A DNA stretch of 64,000 bases from Blautia sp. MSJ-9 (GTDB lineage Bacteria > Bacillota > Clostridia > Lachnospirales > Lachnospiraceae): positions 1-64,000 of the forward strand of contig NZ_JAHLQG010000034.1 of the NCBI RefSeq assembly GCF_018919065.1. The letters run 5' to 3'. A model generated the notes under the pieces. That model was not told the DNA's origin and ran no database searches. It saw only the letters and a program-made list of their open reading frames with translations. Position numbers and translations under genes: made by a program. Shown here piece after piece: positions 30,579-43,216 of this stretch (its first letter is position 1; the number at the start of each line of letters is the position of its first letter).

Positions 30579-32378
30579 TTATCTGGACACTTTATTCTTC
30601 ACAGCAGACCATCCACTATACACTTTCTTTCCCAGCGTATTATAAGAATATGCCCGTATTCTGTAATAGTATTTCGTTCCTTTTCTTAATCCTGTGTTAG
30701 TGTATCTTACAGTATTTCCGGATTTGATGGTTGCTACTTTTCTATAAGAACCTGTAGTACCGACTCTACGGTAGATTTCATAGCCTTTTGCATTCTGGGA
30801 TTTCTTCCAGGAGATTGTCAACCTCTTTGCAACTTTATTGGATATTCCACTGATAACCGGTTTAGAAGGCTTCACGGTATTGTTGTCAACATCATAAGCT
30901 TTATCTGTCATCTGCAGAACAGAATTTGCACCGGTTCCGTAGGTGTCTCGGGTATCCTTATCATATTTGAAATATATATTGCCGCTTTCGGTTTCGTAAG
31001 TATAACCTTTTGAAACACTGCCATAAGATGGAGTATTAAGGAAAAGATCTCCGTCCTCTCCTACTGTACCTTTATCACTGTTTGTGATGTCTGCCATGTA
31101 GTATCTGCCATCCTGCTCTACAATATTCCACATATGAGGTCCGGCACCGGTTCCGCCGTCCATGTCTCCGGTTACTGTATAACAGGTAATATCACTGAGG
31201 TCACACAGATACTGGAATGCTTTTGAATAGCCCTCGCAGACTACCTGTGTGGAATCATCTCCGTCAAACACCCAGATCAACTGCCACGGATCACCATAGC
31301 CGTCTGCGTAAGAATCCGACATTGCTTCATCATTATAGTCTGTCAGATAGCAGATCATTTCCTTATAAGCAACCAGTTTTTCTGTCACAGACGAATTCTT
31401 GAATTCATTTACAATCTGTTTTGCATTTGCCGCCGATGCCTTTGCTATATTTACCATGCTGGCATCTACCCGATATTGATCGGACGCATAGCCATTGCAT
31501 ACCGGCATGGATACCTCCAGATCTGTAATCCTGACAATACGTTTACCGCCACTTACTGATACAGAATAATTGTAGCTCCACTCCGTGTTGGCCGTTTTCT
31601 CATACCAGTATAATTCATAAGGACAATCTGTCCGGAGACAGCTAAGAACTTTGTCTGTATCCAGATTGTCAAAAGTCTGTGATACTTCCTTTTCTAACCG
31701 TGCTCCCGAAGCAGAAGTCTGCCAGCGGAGCCCCAGATCTGAAGTGATCTTGAACTTTGTGCTTCCACCTTTTGCTGCTATATTGGTTACTTTTGTTTTC
31801 ATCTCTTCATAAAGAGCCTGCTGTGCACCGGAAAGAACACTCTCGCCAATAGAAGTGGCAGGGGCTGTAGCTGCATCTTTCTCGTAGAAGAACTGATTTG
31901 CATACTCCCCAAACAGTTCATCATTGTTTGATGAAGTATCAGTATTCAGACTGATTTTCTCTGTTACATGCACAGAACCATCCGGGAGTTCTTGTATTGT
32001 TCTTTCTGTAACTGTGAAATCATTTCCTGCTGCGGTATCATCAGTAATGCTGCTATCTGTAACATTGCTGTCCGTGATATCATCATCTGCACTATTGAAT
32101 TCAGCAATGTCACCACCTGAAATCGCTTTATTCTCTCCGCCATCTGTAAAAACTGTAGCGTTGAAATCTGCATCCACATTTGACTTTCCCTGATTTTTTG
32201 CTGAAGATGTTTCTTGTTCTGTGCCATTCTCAGCAGATGGAATCTGATCCGTGTTAGAAAATGTCTCTACTCCCATCCCATCTGTAAACTCGTCTGCTGC
32301 CAGTACCGGTGCTGTCAAAGTTCCTGCTGCCAGCACGAGACTTAAACTCAAACTGATAAAACTTTTTCTTCTGTACAT
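30579..32378 (-). CDS. Secreted transglutaminase-like protein with C-terminal Fn3 domain
   Basis: A 599-residue exported protein. The signal peptide is at residues 1-28 (VLAADE cleavage), then an acidic Ser/Thr/Asp linker to about 150. A transglutaminase-like core carries the Cys-His-Asp triad at C381 (VVCEGYSKAF), H415 (GAGPHMWNIV) and D430 (YYMADITNSD). A fibronectin type III domain fills about 505-599 (ISWKKSQNAKGYEIYRR). It may crosslink or cleave surface proteins or bind glycans. A close paralogue lies at 41609-43216 on the other side of the HXS operon and glmS. No sorting motif is visible. Confidence 0.85.
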   Translation of the reverse strand: MYRRKSFISLSLSLVLAAGTLTAPVLAADEFTDGMGVETFSNTDQIPSAENGTEQETSSAKNQGKSNVDADFNATVFTDGGENKAISGGDIAEFNSADDDITDSNVTDSSITDDTAAGNDFTVTERTIQELPDGSVHVTEKISLNTDTSSNNDELFGEYANQFFYEKDAATAPATSIGESVLSGAQQALYEEMKTKVTNIAAKGGSTKFKITSDLGLRWQTSASGARLEKEVSQTFDNLDTDKVLSCLRTDCPYELYWYEKTANTEWSYNYSVSVSGGKRIVRITDLEVSMPVCNGYASDQYRVDASMVNIAKASAANAKQIVNEFKNSSVTEKLVAYKEMICYLTDYNDEAMSDSYADGYGDPWQLIWVFDGDDSTQVVCEGYSKAFQYLCDLSDITCYTVTGDMDGGTGAGPHMWNIVEQDGRYYMADITNSDKGTVGEDGDLFLNTPSYGSVSKGYTYETESGNIYFKYDKDTRDTYGTGANSVLQMTDKAYDVDNNTVKPSKPVISGISNKVAKRLTISWKKSQNAKGYEIYRRVGTTGSYRKVATIKSGNTVRYTNTGLRKGTKYYYRIRAYSYNTLGKKVYSGWSAVKNKVSR

Positions 32379-32603: not shown

Positions 32604-33020
32604 TTACTGCATACTTGGCGTGGACTGTGGTGTCTGCATCTTCGGAAGTTTTACCGTAGCTGTCGTATTGCTGCCTGAGGAATGGCTGGATCCGCCTGAG
32701 GAATGACTTCCGGAGGAATGCGAATTATGATTGCTGTGAGAGCCATGACTGCTGTGGCTGCTTGAGGAATGAGATGCATGGCTTCCGTGAGTGCTTGATC
32801 TATGGGAACTATGGCTGCTATGAGAGCTGTGCGATCTGTGAGAACTATGAGATCTGTGTGCAGCATAGACATCACTATCTGCAAGCATAACTCCGAGGAT
32901 CACCATCATAGAACCAATCATGGCAACTTTAGATCTGGAAATGTTTCCCTCTTCCTCCTGCATAAAATCCTCGATTCCTTTTTTTATCTGCGGAAAAATA
33001 TCTTTCTTATCCATTCTCAT
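32604..33020 (-). CDS. hxsA: His-Xaa-Ser repeat protein, probable HxsA substrate
   Basis: A 138-residue precursor. Residues 1-31 are a charged leader (IEDFMQEEEGNISRSK), 32-46 a hydrophobic helix (VAMIGSMMVILGVML), then DVYAA and, from residue 55, some 14 His-Xaa-Ser units (HRS, HSS, HGS, HAS, HNS), ending in a Pro/Thr/Gln tail. HXS proteins are substrates of the paired radical SAM enzymes HxsB and HxsC, both encoded just upstream. The leader resembles a Flp prepilin (acidic patch, Gly25, then a helix) and the operon encodes an A24-type peptidase. A Sec signal cleaved after VYA is the alternative. The start overlaps the MORN stop (ATGA). Confidence 0.85.
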   Translation of the reverse strand: MRMDKKDIFPQIKKGIEDFMQEEEGNISRSKVAMIGSMMVILGVMLADSDVYAAHRSHSSHRSHSSHSSHSSHRSSTHGSHASHSSSSHSSHGSHSNHNSHSSGSHSSGGSSHSSGSNTTATVKLPKMQTPQSTPSMQ

Positions 33021-33583
33021 ACCTTCTTTCTGCTATACACCTTTGTGAGCCTTCCATTAGTGACCTGAATTGAATATACATTATTTTTAATTTTCAACGT
33101 TGCCTTACTGTTGAGTTTCCCGTTTTTCCATGTACCTTTTATATAATTTTTACTTTTCCAGGTATACGTACCGGTGCCGTTCATTTTGTCATTTTTCCAA
33201 TGACCCGTGAATTTGTCCCCGTTTTTAAACCAATAAGTGCCGCTTCCGTTTCTTTTATCTTTTGAAAAATATCCTGTGAATTTGTCTTTATTTTTATATT
33301 TAACAGTTGCTTTTCCTTTCAGATAATTATTATCCCACGTTCCTGTGATAACAGTTCCATCTGCACAATAATAGGTTCCTTTTCCCTGCTTGGAAAGGAA
33401 TATATCTGGCTCCTCTTCATCCGGATCACTTGATTCGCTATCATCTACATTTCCAATATAGCTATCTCCCGTATCATATGTAATGGTTTTGACAGACGCC
33501 ATTACTTCACATGGCTGTCTGATTCCTAAAGTAAGTATCAGACTGATCATCACAAAAATAAAAACTTTTTTCAAATTCTTCAT
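33017..33583 (-). CDS. Secreted MORN-repeat protein in the HXS operon
   Basis: A 188-residue protein with a signal peptide (KKVFIFVMISLILTLGI). Several MORN-like repeats of about 23 residues follow: GTYYCADGTVITGTWDNNYL, then repeats with KFTGYFSKDKRNGSGTYWF and KFTGHWKNDKMNGTGTYTW. MORN repeats form beta-hairpin stacks used for membrane or protein binding. The ATG at 33583 has AGGGAG upstream. It lies between hxsB and hxsA in the same transcript, with overlap to hxsA, suggesting it works with the exported HXS product; its role is unknown. Confidence 0.8.
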   Translation of the reverse strand: MKNLKKVFIFVMISLILTLGIRQPCEVMASVKTITYDTGDSYIGNVDDSESSDPDEEEPDIFLSKQGKGTYYCADGTVITGTWDNNYLKGKATVKYKNKDKFTGYFSKDKRNGSGTYWFKNGDKFTGHWKNDKMNGTGTYTWKSKNYIKGTWKNGKLNSKATLKIKNNVYSIQVTNGRLTKVYSRKKV

Positions 33584-33600
33584 TCTCTTTCTCCCTCTTC

Positions 33601-35001
33601 TTACTGACACCAGGACTTCAGAATTTCTATAGTCTGCTTATCATTTTCATACAGTTTCTCAAACAGTACTTCCTGGATTCCTTTGTAAATACTGCATCTG
33701 TACTCCTCTTCCATTCTCGGATATACTGTCTTATATCTGGCATAACTGATCACCGGACAAGTTCCGCAGTATGGATGATATACACAGTCACAGCAATCCG
33801 TCAGTCCTTCCAGACAGGATGCATTGACAAGCACTCTACACGCAGGTGCGCTCATCAGCTGATTATAGTCGTTATCATAGACATTTCCCAGACAAAAGCT
33901 GTCATCGCCCATTTCTGCAAGCATTCTCGCCTCATCACAGCTGTATACTTTTCCGTTATAATAATATGCCATCTGCCCGATCGCACCACCGCACGGAGAA
34001 CGCAGTTCCATGTAATTTCCAGCATCATGGTTAAAAAGCTTATCCAGAAAGATTCTGGCATGGCCTTCAATCATAAATATTCCTTGTCTGTTAAGTTCCA
34101 GAATATACTCAAATATCTTTCTGTAAAATTCCAGAAATTCTTCTACTGTATATCCTATGGTATCCCAGTTATCCTTTGCATATCCTAACGGTGTTAATGG
34201 ACGGACAATTATCTGCTCTAATCCAAAAGCATGATACTGATCTACCAACTCTTTGTACCTTGTAAGAGAATATCTGGTAGTTGTCTGAATTGCAGATACT
34301 GAAATCTCACTTTCTTTTAACTTGTGCAGGCGCTTTTCCAATATTTTAAAAGCATTCCTGTTCAAATACGGTCGGTTCCTGTTATGGAGAAGTTCATCCC
34401 CATCCAGAGATGTACAGATCGAAACCTGATTTTCTACAAGAAACTGTATTTTTTCTTCGTCCAACAACATAAGATTAGAAACCAGTGAAAACTCAATTTC
34501 CTTATCTGTCTGTTGTGCTTTGGTATACTCTACAATATGCCGGAGTGTCTCGAAGTTCATCAGTGGTTCCCCACCCTGAAACTCAAAAGTCAGGAAATGT
34601 GACGGTGCCTGCAACGCTATGTCAACAGCCCTTTCTGCCGTCTCCAAAGTCATCTTTGTATGTCTGTCAAGGTCTGTAGATGCCTGACAGTACACGCATT
34701 GCTGATTACATTGTTTCGTCAGTACAAAGATGTGCAACGATGCTCCCTGAAAAAGATTTCTTCTGTACTCCCGGAATTCTGCGCCTGCTTTCTCCACAAA
34801 ATCATAAGTGCTGCCTTCATAAAGAAAATATTCATCCTTAAGCCGGCCTGCAAGTCCCTCCTGTGGATCAAGTTTATTAGTGACAAACCGCAAAAATTCA
34901 TCTTTAGTCAGAAAAATATATCTTCCTAAATCGTTCGTCAAAAGATATTTATCTCTTATCTTCTTATAATTAAAATAATTTCTTTTCATCGCATTCATCA
35001 T
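33601..35001 (-). CDS. hxsB: Radical SAM/SPASM maturase HxsB
   Basis: A 466-residue radical SAM enzyme. The 4Fe-4S CxxxCxxC motif is KQCNQQCVYC (C98, C102, C105), and TFEFQGGEPLMNFETLRHIV is the SAM-binding GGEP region. The C-terminus is a Cys-rich SPASM/twitch domain (RSPCGGAIGQMAYY, KVYSCDEAR, CCDCVYHPYCGTCPVISYA) for auxiliary clusters. This matches HxsB, the SPASM member of the HXS pair that modifies HxsA. Its start overlaps the hxsC stop. The modification is not known to me. Confidence 0.85.
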   Translation of the reverse strand: MMNAMKRNYFNYKKIRDKYLLTNDLGRYIFLTKDEFLRFVTNKLDPQEGLAGRLKDEYFLYEGSTYDFVEKAGAEFREYRRNLFQGASLHIFVLTKQCNQQCVYCQASTDLDRHTKMTLETAERAVDIALQAPSHFLTFEFQGGEPLMNFETLRHIVEYTKAQQTDKEIEFSLVSNLMLLDEEKIQFLVENQVSICTSLDGDELLHNRNRPYLNRNAFKILEKRLHKLKESEISVSAIQTTTRYSLTRYKELVDQYHAFGLEQIIVRPLTPLGYAKDNWDTIGYTVEEFLEFYRKIFEYILELNRQGIFMIEGHARIFLDKLFNHDAGNYMELRSPCGGAIGQMAYYYNGKVYSCDEARMLAEMGDDSFCLGNVYDNDYNQLMSAPACRVLVNASCLEGLTDCCDCVYHPYCGTCPVISYARYKTVYPRMEEEYRCSIYKGIQEVLFEKLYENDKQTIEILKSWCQ

Positions 35002-36047
35002 CCTAAAACTCTGACTTTATATTTTGTATAATGATAGGTGGAGAAGAAAAATCCTCCGCATTTCAATTTTTCTCCGCACTTTTCACACTGATCGAAGTAT
35101 CGGATTTTATAATCGCTGATACTGTTCTTATAGCAGTACCAGTATTTCCTGTCAAAAAGACATAATGGAAAGTTATAAAGTCCCGGTTCTATCCCGCACC
35201 TGAAGCTCTCCTCCAGTGCACTTTGCAGGTAAAACTTAAGCTCATCCATTTCTATCCAAACCAATTCTCTGTTCTTCCAGGCATTTCCCAGAACTTCCAT
35301 TCCCATAATATTTATGTATCTCACAGCCGGAAATTCCTGATGAATAAACTGAATGATAGAATTTAATTCCTGATAATTCAATCTGGAAACAACAATACGT
35401 ATTCCAACTTCTGCACCAGTTTCCAGCAAATGGTGAATCCCAGCCATTGTCTGGGCAAAACTTCCCGGGCATCCGGCTATCAGGTCATGTTTTCCGGGCT
35501 CTGCACTATGTACCGGAATCTCAATTTTAAATTTTTTATTGGAAAAAGCTGAAAATTTCTCCGCATATTTACGATCAGCAAAACTTCTTCCATTCGAAAG
35601 CATCAAAACTTCTGCTTCCTCTGCCTGTTCCGTCATACGCTGGATCAATGGAAGTAACTGATATTTCAACAATGTCGGCTCTCCTCCGGTGATATCTACA
35701 TGACTCAGATCCGAAGGCAGTAAGGAAATGTACTCCATCAGATATTCACTTGTGATATGATTCGGTCTTGTACGGGCTTTTACCGAATCCGGACACATAA
35801 TACAATTGGAATTACATTGATTTGTCACATAAACCAGCGCACTGGATGAACTTCCATCGTGAAGTCTGATTACTTTTCCCTTTTGCGTAAGTTCTATTAC
35901 ATCTCCATGGCAAAGGTCCTCTGTTTCGTCATTTATTATGGCAGTTTTTTCTCCATTCCTGTCAACCGCATACCAGATGTCCTCACTTTTCTCAATTCTC
36001 CAGAGACAATCATTTCTCAGATCCGTCAACTTCGTCAAATCATTCAT
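34998..36047 (-). CDS. hxsC: Radical SAM maturase HxsC
   Basis: A roughly 349-residue radical SAM protein, the partner of HxsB. The cluster motif is VTNQCNSNCIMCPDS and the SAM-binding region is HVDITGGEPTLLKYQLLPLI. The C-terminus has the HxsC-like SISDYKIRYFDQCEKCGEKL followed by KCGGFFFS, a small Cys cluster. The ATG at 36047 overlaps the stop of the peptidase gene (ATGA); an ATG at 36059 is the alternative. Translational coupling with hxsB suggests a complex. Confidence 0.85.
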   Translation of the reverse strand: MNDLTKLTDLRNDCLWRIEKSEDIWYAVDRNGEKTAIINDETEDLCHGDVIELTQKGKVIRLHDGSSSSALVYVTNQCNSNCIMCPDSVKARTRPNHITSEYLMEYISLLPSDLSHVDITGGEPTLLKYQLLPLIQRMTEQAEEAEVLMLSNGRSFADRKYAEKFSAFSNKKFKIEIPVHSAEPGKHDLIAGCPGSFAQTMAGIHHLLETGAEVGIRIVVSRLNYQELNSIIQFIHQEFPAVRYINIMGMEVLGNAWKNRELVWIEMDELKFYLQSALEESFRCGIEPGLYNFPLCLFDRKYWYCYKNSISDYKIRYFDQCEKCGEKLKCGGFFFSTYHYTKYKVRVLG

Positions 36048-37087
36048 TTTAAGCGCCATACTCCAATCAAATATGTAATCATTCCTATTAAAATAAATAC
36101 CGCAAAGGGAATATATCTGACAACCATAATCTGTTCCTTACCATACTTGGACTTCTCCCATCTCTTAATGGAATCCGCTTCCTCCTGTGTAATTCTTGAC
36201 TTCGTAGTCTCATCTGTAGTAGTTGGCAGCCCTTTTACTCTGGATCCATAAAACTGCTGAACCGCGAAATAAGATAAAATCATACCAGCTTTCACATCGC
36301 ATGTCCGGATCCATTCATAATTAAATCTATCCGTAAATTTCAGACTAAAATGCGTTACTACAACAAGAATCACCGTCATTCCCAACGTTCTGAAATCATA
36401 TCCGCCCCAAAAAGTAAAACTGAGAAGTGAATATACCGTCAGCATACAGATGGTCCATATCTTCTTATGCGGAATCCTGGCTGATACCAGCTTATTTGTC
36501 ATCAAAATTCCTATCAGAGAGAAAAAAATCCTGTTACTTTCAAAATAATCTCCGAGTACATAACTGCAGGCAGTATAGACCAGAGATAGAAATAATATGG
36601 AAAACCCTATATCCCACAACTGCTCCAGCTGAATTTTTCCCTGATGAAAGGTAACTGCCCTCTCTTTGTGAAAAACTGTAAGCCACAGGGATTCTCCAAT
36701 CAGATAAATATATGCCTCAATAAAAATCAGCATAAACATGATCATGGACGGAAACAACATCTTATCCGAAACTGCATACCATCCGGCAGGATAAATAAAA
36801 TTTACAAACAGCCATAATTTCGAATCTCCTGCCCCCCATAACTTCCACGCAAAAAACAGAATTGCGATCACAAGTGCTGATAACAGATTCGTCAGGAACA
36901 GAGAAATAAGCTCTCTGTGCCAGAAATAATATAAAAATGCCAGCACAATTCCCGGACACATTCCTGCCTTCAGCCATTTGTTGTAAATTTTTCCCCGCTT
37001 CCAGTCTGTTACTGCTGCAACTGCACAAATAAAAACAAGATATAAAAGCATAAGGTATTCAACATGGCTTGCAAAATAATCAGTCAT
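36044..37087 (-). CDS. A24-type prepilin-peptidase-like membrane protein in the HXS operon
   Basis: A roughly 347-residue membrane protein. It carries the two catalytic aspartates of the type IV prepilin peptidase/CpaA family: the first in AAVTDWKRGKIYNKW (about D28-31) and the second in LWGAGDSKLWLF, the GxGD motif (about D88-91). About eight hydrophobic segments follow, plus a cytoplasmic loop near RVKGLPTTTDETTKSR. The A24 core is followed by about 150 extra residues with further membrane segments, unlike the compact TadV/CpaA form. No pilus genes are present, so the natural substrate is HxsA, whose leader resembles a Flp prepilin. The ATG at 37087 overlaps the upstream stop. Confidence 0.72.
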   Translation of the reverse strand: MTDYFASHVEYLMLLYLVFICAVAAVTDWKRGKIYNKWLKAGMCPGIVLAFLYYFWHRELISLFLTNLLSALVIAILFFAWKLWGAGDSKLWLFVNFIYPAGWYAVSDKMLFPSMIMFMLIFIEAYIYLIGESLWLTVFHKERAVTFHQGKIQLEQLWDIGFSILFLSLVYTACSYVLGDYFESNRIFFSLIGILMTNKLVSARIPHKKIWTICMLTVYSLLSFTFWGGYDFRTLGMTVILVVVTHFSLKFTDRFNYEWIRTCDVKAGMILSYFAVQQFYGSRVKGLPTTTDETTKSRITQEEADSIKRWEKSKYGKEQIMVVRYIPFAVFILIGMITYLIGVWRLK

Positions 37088-37304
37088 ACAAATCACCCAT
37101 ATTCTTAATCGTTGCTATCAGAACATAATTTCTGAATTCATTTAATATCATCAGCGGTTCTGTCCTGCATTTTTCAAAACGCAAATGGTAATAATTGTCT
37201 TCTTCTACAACTGAGATCTCCGCAAGACTACCAAAAGCCGATACTGACATTTGAATCGCATCACGACTGTAGATTCCTTTATTTAATAACAGACTATTCT
37301 TCAT
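37080..37304 (-). CDS. Small HxsD-like protein (second copy)
   Basis: 74 residues from the ATG at 37304, which overlaps the end of the first HxsD-like gene. YSRDAIQMSVSAFGSLAEIS and YHLRFEKC are followed by MILNEFRNYVLIATI, reminiscent of the LLNDYxLRE motif used to define HxsD. It is probably a small accessory or substrate-recognition protein for the radical SAM pair. Similarity to the adjacent gene suggests tandem duplication with divergence, though at this length the family call is tentative. Confidence 0.5.
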   Translation of the reverse strand: MKNSLLLNKGIYSRDAIQMSVSAFGSLAEISVVEEDNYYHLRFEKCRTEPLMILNEFRNYVLIATIKNMGDLYD

Positions 37305-37704
37305 CCTTCCACGCCTCTGCAATCTCTTCCAGATTATACTCTTCATCGCTGTCAGTCTCTTCTTCCGACTCTTCCTGCGGAATAAACGCACTATATAAAG
37401 CCCGTGTCACGATCAACTCACGAATCTGTCTGGTATCATTACCAATAGCCAGTTTCATACTCTGATCCAGCAATTCATTCTGAAAACGCCCTGCATCTTC
37501 AAAATCCACGGCCTTTATTCTTCCGTCAGCTGCCCGCTCCTTGCTGGAAAAAAAGATCAAATATTCGTCAGCGTTCTGATCAATTCCTATGTAGTATTCG
37601 TCCATTAACAGATATGCAGCTCGGTAAACAGCCTTCAATGGATAAATATCTTTCTTCACCTTAAAGCAGATTCTGCCATCTTCTATTCTTTCATAATCTA
37701 ACAT
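37294..37704 (-). CDS. hxsD: HxsD-like accessory protein
   Basis: A 136-residue soluble protein, first gene of the HXS operon. KDIYPLKAVYRAAYLLMDEY is followed by a strand pair (YIGIDQNADEYLIFFSSK) and RFQNELLDQSMKLAI, the equivalent of the HxsD C-terminal motif, then an acidic tail (EESEEETDSDEEYNLEEIAE). HxsD is the small conserved partner of HxsB and HxsC. AAAGGA lies eight bases before the ATG, and a TATAAT-like -10 lies at 37741-37746 without a good -35. Confidence 0.65.
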   Translation of the reverse strand: MLDYERIEDGRICFKVKKDIYPLKAVYRAAYLLMDEYYIGIDQNADEYLIFFSSKERAADGRIKAVDFEDAGRFQNELLDQSMKLAIGNDTRQIRELIVTRALYSAFIPQEESEEETDSDEEYNLEEIAEAWKDEE

Positions 37705-41608: not shown

Positions 41609-43216
41609 TTATTTTACTTTCTGGCTTTTTACAGTGGACCATCCACTATATACTTTTTCGCCGTTTTTATCATATGTATAGGAACGGATTCTGTAATAAT
41701 ATGTGTGTCCTTTTTTCAGTTTCATATTTGTGTATCTTATGGTGGAACCAGATTGGATCACTGCTGCCTTTACATAGGAATTGGTAGTTCCTGCACGGCG
41801 GTAAATCTCATATCCTTTCGCTCCTTTTGATTTCTTCCAGCTGATCACAAGTTTGCCGGCTGTCTTGTTTGATATGCCTGTAATTGTTGTTTTTGCCGGT
41901 TTTGCGGTCAGGCCATCCGCCGAATAGGACTCCTGTGTCATCAGAAGGATAGAATTCTTTCCTGTTCCATATAATTTCTTCGTATCTGTATCGTATGCAT
42001 AATGCATGTTTATGCTGTCTGTGGCATATGTATAGCCTTTGGAAATACTTCCGGAGAGTGGGGTATCCAGAAACAGCCCGCCCCCGGCTCCTACTGTACC
42101 CTCATCGCTGTTGGTGATATCTGTCAGGTAGTATTTACCATTATTTGCAACAATATTCCACATGTGAGGTCCTGCTCCAGTTCCACCGCTCATGATACCG
42201 CTTACTGTATAACAAGTAATATCACTGAGATCGCATAAGTACTGGAATGCCTTGGAATAGCCCTCACAGACTACATTGGTGCTGTCATCTCCGTCAAAGA
42301 CATAAATCAGCTGCCAGGGATCTCCGTATTCATCCCAGTCCGTCACATCTTCATTATATGAAGTCAGATTGCAGATAATTTCTTTATATGCAAGAAGTTT
42401 CTCAGGTTCTGTGTAACTGCTGAATTCATTTACGATCATCTTCGCTTTGGCTGCTGCCTTCTTTGCAAGCTGTACGATTTTGGCGTTTACCTTATAGCTT
42501 CCAGATGCATAACTGTTGATCACTGGCATATATATGGAAATATTTGTAATCTTTACAGTTGTTTTGCCTCCTGTTGTAGATGTAGTATACCCATACTGCC
42601 ATATGGTTGATGCTGTTTTCTCATACCAGTAGAGTTCATAAGGACAGTCTACCAGCAGGCAGTTAATGATCCTGGAAGTATTCAGTGTACCGAAACGTGA
42701 GGATACTTCTTTCTCCAGCGCTGCTCCTTTTGCTGTAGTCTGCCAGGTGAGTCCAAGATTGGAACTGATACTGAATTTCGTTGAGCCTCCCTTGGATGCC
42801 ACTGTGGTGATCTTTCCTTTAAGTTCTTCATATAAGGTCTGCTGTACGCCGGTCAATACATCCTCTGCCACGGAAGTTCCAGGCAGTACGGAGATATCCT
42901 GCTCATATAGAATGCTGTTAAGGTATTCTTCCAAAAGTTGTTCATGATCCGGAATGTCTGCACTCGGAATCACGGTATCTGTCATAACTTCTGTATCATC
43001 GAAATTATCTTCCTTCGCATCTGAACTCTCTTCTCCGTTATCTGTATTCTCTTCGCCAGAGTCAAATTTCGGAATATCCTCTGTATCTGAACTGAAATCT
43101 GAAACAGTTGAAGCTGTACCATCTGTAAAATCAGACGCCGCTGCCGGTGCTGCCAGCATACCTGCTGCCAGCACCAGACTAAGTCCCAGGCTTATTATGT
43201 CTCTCTTCTTATGCAT
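41609..43216 (-). CDS. Secreted transglutaminase-like protein with Fn3 domain (paralogue)
   Basis: A 535-residue exported protein closely similar to the one at 30579-32378. The signal peptide is at residues 1-28 (LAAPAAASDF), then a shorter acidic linker, a transglutaminase-like core with C317 (VVCEGYSKAF), H351 (GAGPHMWNIV) and D366 (YYLTDITNSD), and a C-terminal Fn3 domain (LVISWKKSKGAKGYEIYRR onward). Core blocks around the Cys and His are almost identical between the paralogues while linkers differ. AAGGAGAG precedes the ATG. Targets are unknown. Confidence 0.85.
   Translation of the reverse strand: MHKKRDIISLGLSLVLAAGMLAAPAAASDFTDGTASTVSDFSSDTEDIPKFDSGEENTDNGEESSDAKEDNFDDTEVMTDTVIPSADIPDHEQLLEEYLNSILYEQDISVLPGTSVAEDVLTGVQQTLYEELKGKITTVASKGGSTKFSISSNLGLTWQTTAKGAALEKEVSSRFGTLNTSRIINCLLVDCPYELYWYEKTASTIWQYGYTTSTTGGKTTVKITNISIYMPVINSYASGSYKVNAKIVQLAKKAAAKAKMIVNEFSSYTEPEKLLAYKEIICNLTSYNEDVTDWDEYGDPWQLIYVFDGDDSTNVVCEGYSKAFQYLCDLSDITCYTVSGIMSGGTGAGPHMWNIVANNGKYYLTDITNSDEGTVGAGGGLFLDTPLSGSISKGYTYATDSINMHYAYDTDTKKLYGTGKNSILLMTQESYSADGLTAKPAKTTITGISNKTAGKLVISWKKSKGAKGYEIYRRAGTTNSYVKAAVIQSGSTIRYTNMKLKKGHTYYYRIRSYTYDKNGEKVYSGWSTVKSQKVK

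Follow-up and report, generated by a model that had tools for sequence, protein, structure and literature searches.

An HXS operon with an A24-type peptidase gene

The window analysed here, a 64,000-nucleotide stretch of DNA from Blautia sp. MSJ-9 (contig NZ_JAHLQG010000034.1), carries on its minus strand, from position 37704 down to 32604, a His-Xaa-Ser (HXS) operon of seven genes encoding, in order, HxsD, an HxsD-like protein, a predicted A24-type peptidase, the radical S-adenosylmethionine (SAM) enzymes HxsC and HxsB, a MORN-repeat protein and HxsA3. The subject of this work is the A24-type protein and its relation to the HxsA3 precursor. The genes and the parts of HxsA3 are as follows.

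37294..37704, minus strand: HxsD, 136 aa, first gene of the operon (NCBIfam TIGR03976, 65 bits, cut-off 50)
37080..37391, minus strand: HxsD-like protein, longest frame 103 aa (NCBIfam NF038315, 66.6 bits, cut-off 41)
36044..37096, minus strand: predicted A24-type (GxGD) membrane peptidase, 350 aa (PF01478, 24.9 bits; D31 and D91)
34998..36059, minus strand: HxsC radical SAM enzyme, 353 aa (TIGR03977, 294.7 bits, cut-off 267.9; CxxxCxxC in the translation)
33601..35001, minus strand: HxsB radical SAM maturase, 466 aa (TIGR03978, 518 bits, cut-off 370)
33017..33610, minus strand: MORN-repeat protein (Pfam PF02493, 57.5 bits, over cut-off)
32604..33020, minus strand: HxsA3 precursor, 138 aa (NF038309, 114 bits, cut-off 65)
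32946..33020, minus strand: HxsA3 leader, residues 1-25, ending EEEG, with a proposed A24 cut after G25 (34-row alignment)
32862..32945, minus strand: Sec-signal-like stretch of HxsA3, residues 26-53, with NISRSK, a hydrophobic part and a VYA end, the proposed signal peptidase I site
32607..32861, minus strand: His-Xaa-Ser repeats and C-terminal tail of HxsA3, residues 54-138 (16 His-Xaa-Ser triplets in the translation)

Taken as longest frames, all of these genes overlap their neighbours, bearing out the seven overlapping genes of a preliminary description of this DNA. Five of the proteins, HxsA3, HxsB, HxsC, HxsD and the HxsD-like protein, passed their NCBIfam cut-offs, and the identities given in that description to the two radical SAM enzymes, to the two HxsD-like proteins and to the MORN protein, which has an N-terminal hydrophobic segment (residues 12-30 of the longest frame), were all recovered. 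The substrate, there called HxsA, is indeed a His-Xaa-Ser precursor but belongs to HxsA3 rather than to classical HxsA. Judging from homologue lengths and sequence, the HxsD-like gene probably starts at the ATG at 37304, giving 74 aa (most homologues measure about 65-90 aa), and the MORN gene probably at the ATG at 33583. In agreement with the description, no pilus gene, including those for an assembly ATPase or a platform protein, was recognised among the seven operon genes with NCBIfam and Pfam.

Recurrence of the peptidase gene in HxsB loci

HxsB is patchily distributed, occurring in 4 of 391 genomes of the class, 6 of 397 of the family and 2 of 64 of the genus, with the Blautia genome included each time; in one of the six family genomes (G688) it contains an internal stop and scores below cut-off. 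The sample of loci consisted of the best 80 of 566 relatives, obtained by scanning genome contigs with an HxsB alignment, and therefore leans towards HxsB proteins like that of the window. Genes in these loci were sought with profiles built from at most seven loci and extended by iteration, and the loci were split by taxonomic label and gene content into 67 of Gram-positive type (Firmicutes, Eggerthellaceae, one Synergistales, one metagenome-assembled genome (MAG) labelled Chloroflexi, and further MAGs) and 13 others. A distance test left out L024, L025, L055, L057, L063, L074 and L106.

The A24 gene was present in 65 of the 67 Gram-positive-type loci; among these are copies truncated where the contig stops (L055, L057, L106) and another that runs into N (L063). 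HxsA3 was found in 63 of the 67, every one of which also had the A24 gene (63/63). In L074 and L075 the A24 gene was present with HxsA3 not in the locus; the L074 contig ends in HxsB, and in the L075 genome an HxsA leader lies on a different contig. L072 and L088 had neither gene. There (8143-11880 of L072, 9700-13938 of L088), HxsB-like genes lie beside genes for zinc-ribbon-like and secreted-looking proteins, HxsA, HxsC and A24 were not found, and the loci possibly belong to another system. A MORN gene was usual, not universal: of the 65 loci with A24 it was present in 54 and missing from 11, two of the latter also without a found HxsA3. Among the 13 other loci, an HxsA-type match was found in 6, with A24 in the same locus for 2 of those 6. 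Since the gene recurs in 65 of 67 loci and tracks the leader type across phyla (see below), chance neighbourhood was rejected, and A24 is a fixed part of the HxsA3-type branch of HXS.

Catalytic residues and domains of the linked A24 protein

The window protein scored 24.9 bits against Pfam Peptidase_A24 (PF01478, cut-off 26.5) and 28.7 bits, above the cut-off, in a six-frame search, and 62 of its 65 relatives matched the same family at E 0.01. The catalytic D31 and the pair G90-D91 were invariant in all 65 aligned relatives. The GxGD motif noted in the preliminary description reads GAGD in the window, with AAGD and AGGD among the relatives and PAGD in Elusimicrobiota, so that GD alone is conserved across the family. 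The A24 gene is neither mostly absent (65 of 67 loci have it) nor without its aspartates, which all 65 aligned proteins share, and the proposal that this is a separate HXS type equipped with an A24 peptidase of its own was upheld. No NCBIfam family matched the linked peptidase in the five proteins tested (window, L151, L021, L033, L092), and the sole PDB sequence match of the window protein was FlaK (3s0x, E 0.0037).

A C-terminal domain spans about residues 258-342. In the class sample, the A24 alignment found matches in 39 of 391 genomes, of which three were full-length, all in genomes with HxsB, while in the remaining 36 the reported match does not reach past position 197 of 342 and so ends ahead of the C-terminal domain. 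With 36 of the 39 class matches ending there, identity of the linked protein with a general prepilin peptidase was rejected. The Blautia genome itself has two further A24 genes, separated by about 7 kb, on a different contig (C9); the cluster that holds them (L179, 4942-12246) looks by eye, without a family search, like a Tad-like pilus cluster.

The HxsA3 leader and two proposed cleavage sites

A typical HxsA3 precursor consists of a leader, FPKIKKSIEDFLYEEEG, followed by NITRNK-like residues, a hydrophobic stretch, an A-x-A motif and the His-Xaa-Ser repeats. The proposed A24 site was compared in 74 HxsA rows, a count that omits L017, L018 and L020 as duplicates of L084, L031 and L034. Position -1 was G in 72 rows and A in 2, position -2 was acidic in 73, position -3 was E in 72, position +2 was I, V or M in all 74, and R or K stood at +4 in 64 and at +6 in 66; these counts are biased because an acidic-x-[GA] pattern underlay both the profile and the site finder, though that pattern was present in 77 of 77 HxsA hits. 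Both rows with Ala at -1 come from the Synergistales locus (L105, 6865-7642), which encodes two HxsA-type precursors, each with Ala instead of the Gly that precedes the proposed cut. Conservation of the leader extends beyond the glycine over much of its length in the 34-row alignment.

Downstream of this site, the 68 Gram-positive-type rows had a signal-peptidase-like end: position -1 was A or G in 66 of them, and position -3 was A or V in 60. The two proposed sites lay 27 residues apart in 57 of 68 and 28 apart in 9 of 68. The net charge of positions +1 to +6 was positive in 68 of 68, and a hydrophobic segment was called in 66, L042 and L080 falling under the hydropathy cut; by the same cut no membrane segment was called in the six other rows (Elusimicrobiota and L093). 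As in class III signal peptides, a hydrophilic leader ending in Gly or Ala thus stands ahead of a membrane segment. E or D is usual at +5 in pilins according to PMC3244431, whereas HxsA3 had E at this position in none of the 68 rows and D in 2. Flp prepilins of the class, represented by 15 distinct sites, had EY at +5/+6 in all, and 6 of the 15 were doubly acidic before the glycine (for example RDEEG/QGMAEY, with the cut at the slash), so the HxsA3 site resembles one flavour of pilin site.

The part of HxsA3 after the proposed cut was longer in loci without a MORN gene (median 204, n = 9) than in those with one (median 141, n = 55). Four MORN-less loci (L062, L064, L067, L082) have a longer HxsA3 with a common Tyr-rich C terminus, DLKxYY[IL]HYKDxGK[AS]EGR, and the HxsA3 proteins of L023, L045, L046 and L066 have a hydrophobic C-terminal part with a basic tail.

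Peptidase and leader across phyla

The same peptidase was present in most of the Elusimicrobiota, Deltaproteobacteria and Myxococcota genomes found with an HxsA3/HxsA4-type leader, and in one Synergistales. The preliminary description had proposed a Gram-positive HXS type; the type is distinct, but its restriction to Gram-positive organisms was rejected, as peptidase and leader are shared with these phyla.

Co-occurrence was tabulated in 20 HxsB-bearing genomes whose loci mostly lack a complete HxsA3-type operon, with peptidase data from a genome search in 18 and from loci L074 and L075 in 2. Leader and peptidase occurred together in 9, the leader alone in 1, the peptidase alone in 1 and neither in 9 (Fisher one-sided 5.5e-4); the table disregards a match to the leader at 15.4 bits in G688, as well as A24 matches confined to the catalytic half in G773 and G025. 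The leader query alignment included L092, L093, L096 and L097. The leaders of G838, G848 and G850 lie outside this alignment, and in these genomes the leader and peptidase genes are on different contigs.

In Elusimicrobiota HxsB is very common, with matches at E 1e-70 in 75 of 294 genomes and at most four matches each. The test set comprised the first 55 of the 75 HxsB-positive genomes by table order and 25 of the 219 others, 20 of these being named as without a match and five (G877-G881) counted as negative by their absence from the 75 positives. The A24 C-terminal domain was found in 50 of 55 HxsB-positive and 0 of 25 HxsB-negative genomes, and the leader in 54 of 55 and 0 of 25, with neither in the HxsB-positive genome G926. 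Jointly, 50 of the 80 genomes had both the peptidase domain and the leader, 4 the leader only, none the peptidase only and 26 neither (P 3.6e-17), a value not to be taken literally because the genomes are related and three of them (G841, G843, G845) supplied query rows; relatedness makes both Fisher values overstate independence. Among ten C-terminal-domain loci that were fetched, the GD motif is in frame in nine and a first-aspartate motif could be recognised in seven, while all seven fetched leader loci had the EEG end. HxsA2 did not exceed its cut-off in any of 10 HxsB genomes (nine leaderless ones and G842, with a leader), which gave one weak match.

The peptidase gene adjoins or sits among HxsC-like radical SAM genes in L151-L155 (Deltaproteobacteria, Myxococcota, Elusimicrobiota). 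One radical SAM protein of L151 (4084-9834) resembles HxsC4, at 350 bits against a cut-off of 500. Near HXS genes in Elusimicrobiota, L155 (7571-8365) and L157 (9528-10334) encode a further protein, which in the L155 copy contains the stretch ENVTLTTYYPAPSGVYTQM; that copy had no NCBIfam match.

Comparison with known systems

Classical HXS systems with HxsA or HxsA2 (TIGR03979, NF038296) share with the window operon the HxsB and HxsC families and an exported His-Xaa-Ser repeat substrate. At eight plasmid HxsB regions, all with HxsB and HxsC and four with an annotated HxsD, no A24 gene was annotated within 6-7 kb and none was found by the A24 profile at E 10, the chromosomes lying outside the search. 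Unlike HxsA3, the eight plasmid precursors (five annotated hxsA or hxsA2, three chosen from frames) have, by eye, a plain signal-peptide-like start and no EEG leader. HxsA3, HxsA4 and HxsC4 are existing NCBIfam families (NF038309, NF038313, NF038332); the window precursor is an HxsA3, and the precursors of L092 (Elusimicrobiota) and L165 (Deltaproteobacteria) score as HxsA4.

Like the prepilin and prearchaellin peptidases of family A24 (PilD, TadV, FlaK), the HXS-linked protein has two conserved aspartates and membrane helices, and some Flp pilins have a substrate site like that of HxsA3. It differs from those peptidases in an additional conserved C-terminal domain, in its linkage to radical SAM rather than pilus genes and in a substrate without the +5 glutamate. 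The HXS, HxsA3, HxsA4 and A24 families are thus already known. A link between HXS and a prepilin peptidase was not found in the literature searched, which included passages of PMC9062424, PMC3244431 and PMC4471445 and left subscription journals mostly outside reach; nor was a description of an HXS product or role found there.

Surroundings of the operon

Outside the operon, long frames of the window were viewed by their first residues alone. Two large secreted-looking proteins with similar N termini are encoded at 30579-32378 and 41609-43216, on either side of the operon region, and fibronectin III and transglutaminase-like domains matched the former at scores short of the cut-off. A scan for promoter-like sites (24 against 18.4 expected) and terminators (1 against 3.1 expected) was uninformative.

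A proposed dedicated leader peptidase for HxsA3

The co-occurrence of peptidase and leader in distant phyla suggests leader removal by the peptidase, and we consider it likely that the A24-type protein is the dedicated leader peptidase of an HxsA3-type HXS operon. Judging from their families, HxsB and HxsC, with the HxsD proteins, would modify the His-Xaa-Ser repeats in the cytoplasm. The A24 protein would cut at the cytoplasmic face of the membrane, in the manner of a pilin peptidase, after the glycine of the leader of about 25 residues with its acidic-acidic-Gly end (EEEG/NI), a step proposed because of the site, the catalytic residues, the linkage and the known cutting by pilin peptidases, whose mode of action as described in PMC3244431 and PMC4471445 was taken as the model. 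This cut would leave an ordinary-looking Sec signal, with basic residues, a hydrophobic stretch and an A-x-A type site 27-28 residues on, and following Sec export signal peptidase I would free the modified repeat part outside. There, the product may be retained at the surface by the MORN protein or, in loci without it, by an extra C-terminal part of HxsA3. This role for the MORN protein fits, since MORN-less loci have a longer HxsA3, which in some cases ends in a hydrophobic part followed by a basic tail. Processing and surface display, as the preliminary description had suggested, would thus be the fate of the HxsA3 product, although modification, export, the second cut and retention are weaker parts of the scheme than the A24 cut. 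More tentatively, and in our view rather doubtfully, the peptidase may also be an export gate: the leader would hold the radical SAM enzymes, its removal would make a Sec substrate, and only modified peptide would be exported.

Several points weigh against a leader peptidase, besides the bias in the site counts. The cleavage itself is predicted, and that by signal peptidase I is proposed from a pattern only. A leader without the peptidase occurs in four Elusimicrobiota genomes (G936, G976, G980, G998) and in G842, a 0.9 Mb assembly, and the peptidase without a leader in G855, on a contig ending in HxsB. Nine of the 15 distinct Flp prepilin sites are without the doubly acidic motif and are mostly basic there. 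Structural support for a FlaK-like fold is mixed, because FlaK was not among the matches listed (50 of 399 chains) for the second, better-scored structure model (predicted local distance difference test, pLDDT, 92.4). Leader and peptidase could also travel together for another reason.

A rival reading is that the role of the leader and its EEEG is confined to docking HxsB, HxsC and HxsD, the A24 protein cutting another substrate, for example the MORN protein, or acting as a scaffold. Leaders of ribosomally synthesized and post-translationally modified peptides commonly bind their enzymes, conservation reaches along much of the HxsA3 leader instead of being limited to the glycine, and five genomes have the leader without A24, all of which would suit docking. 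The enzymes of the eight plasmid loci are nevertheless encoded beside precursors without such a leader, the MORN protein is missing from 11 of the A24-bearing loci, and the catalytic aspartates are invariant, so that we regard docking alone as unlikely. A second arrangement would have the A24 protein act after signal peptidase I, clearing the leader and signal stub from the membrane. GxGD enzymes include signal peptide peptidases, and both sites are conserved in HxsA3; it is not obvious, however, why stub clearing should require an acidic-Gly motif just ahead of the membrane segment or why A24 should track the leader type so closely, and this arrangement appears very unlikely. The least probable reading is that HxsA3 is a true pilin-like subunit, cut by A24 and assembled by pilus machinery, for instance that of the Tad-like cluster in the same genome. 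The pilin-type leader and the further A24 pair in that genome speak for it, yet no E stands at +5 of the 68 Gram-positive-type rows (D in 2), where E or D is usual in pilins (PMC3244431), the charge of +1 to +6 is positive throughout, no assembly ATPase or platform gene was recognised in the operon, and the post-leader stretch ends in a signal-peptidase-like site.

The link between this HXS branch and the A24 protein predicts an exact cut, after EEEG, and the residues of the mature peptide, which makes purification of the product and mass spectrometry practical. If a dedicated leader peptidase is the right reading, the substrates of A24 peptidases would come to include, beside pilins and archaellins, peptides modified by radical SAM enzymes, both in gut Firmicutes and in Elusimicrobiota and other groups.

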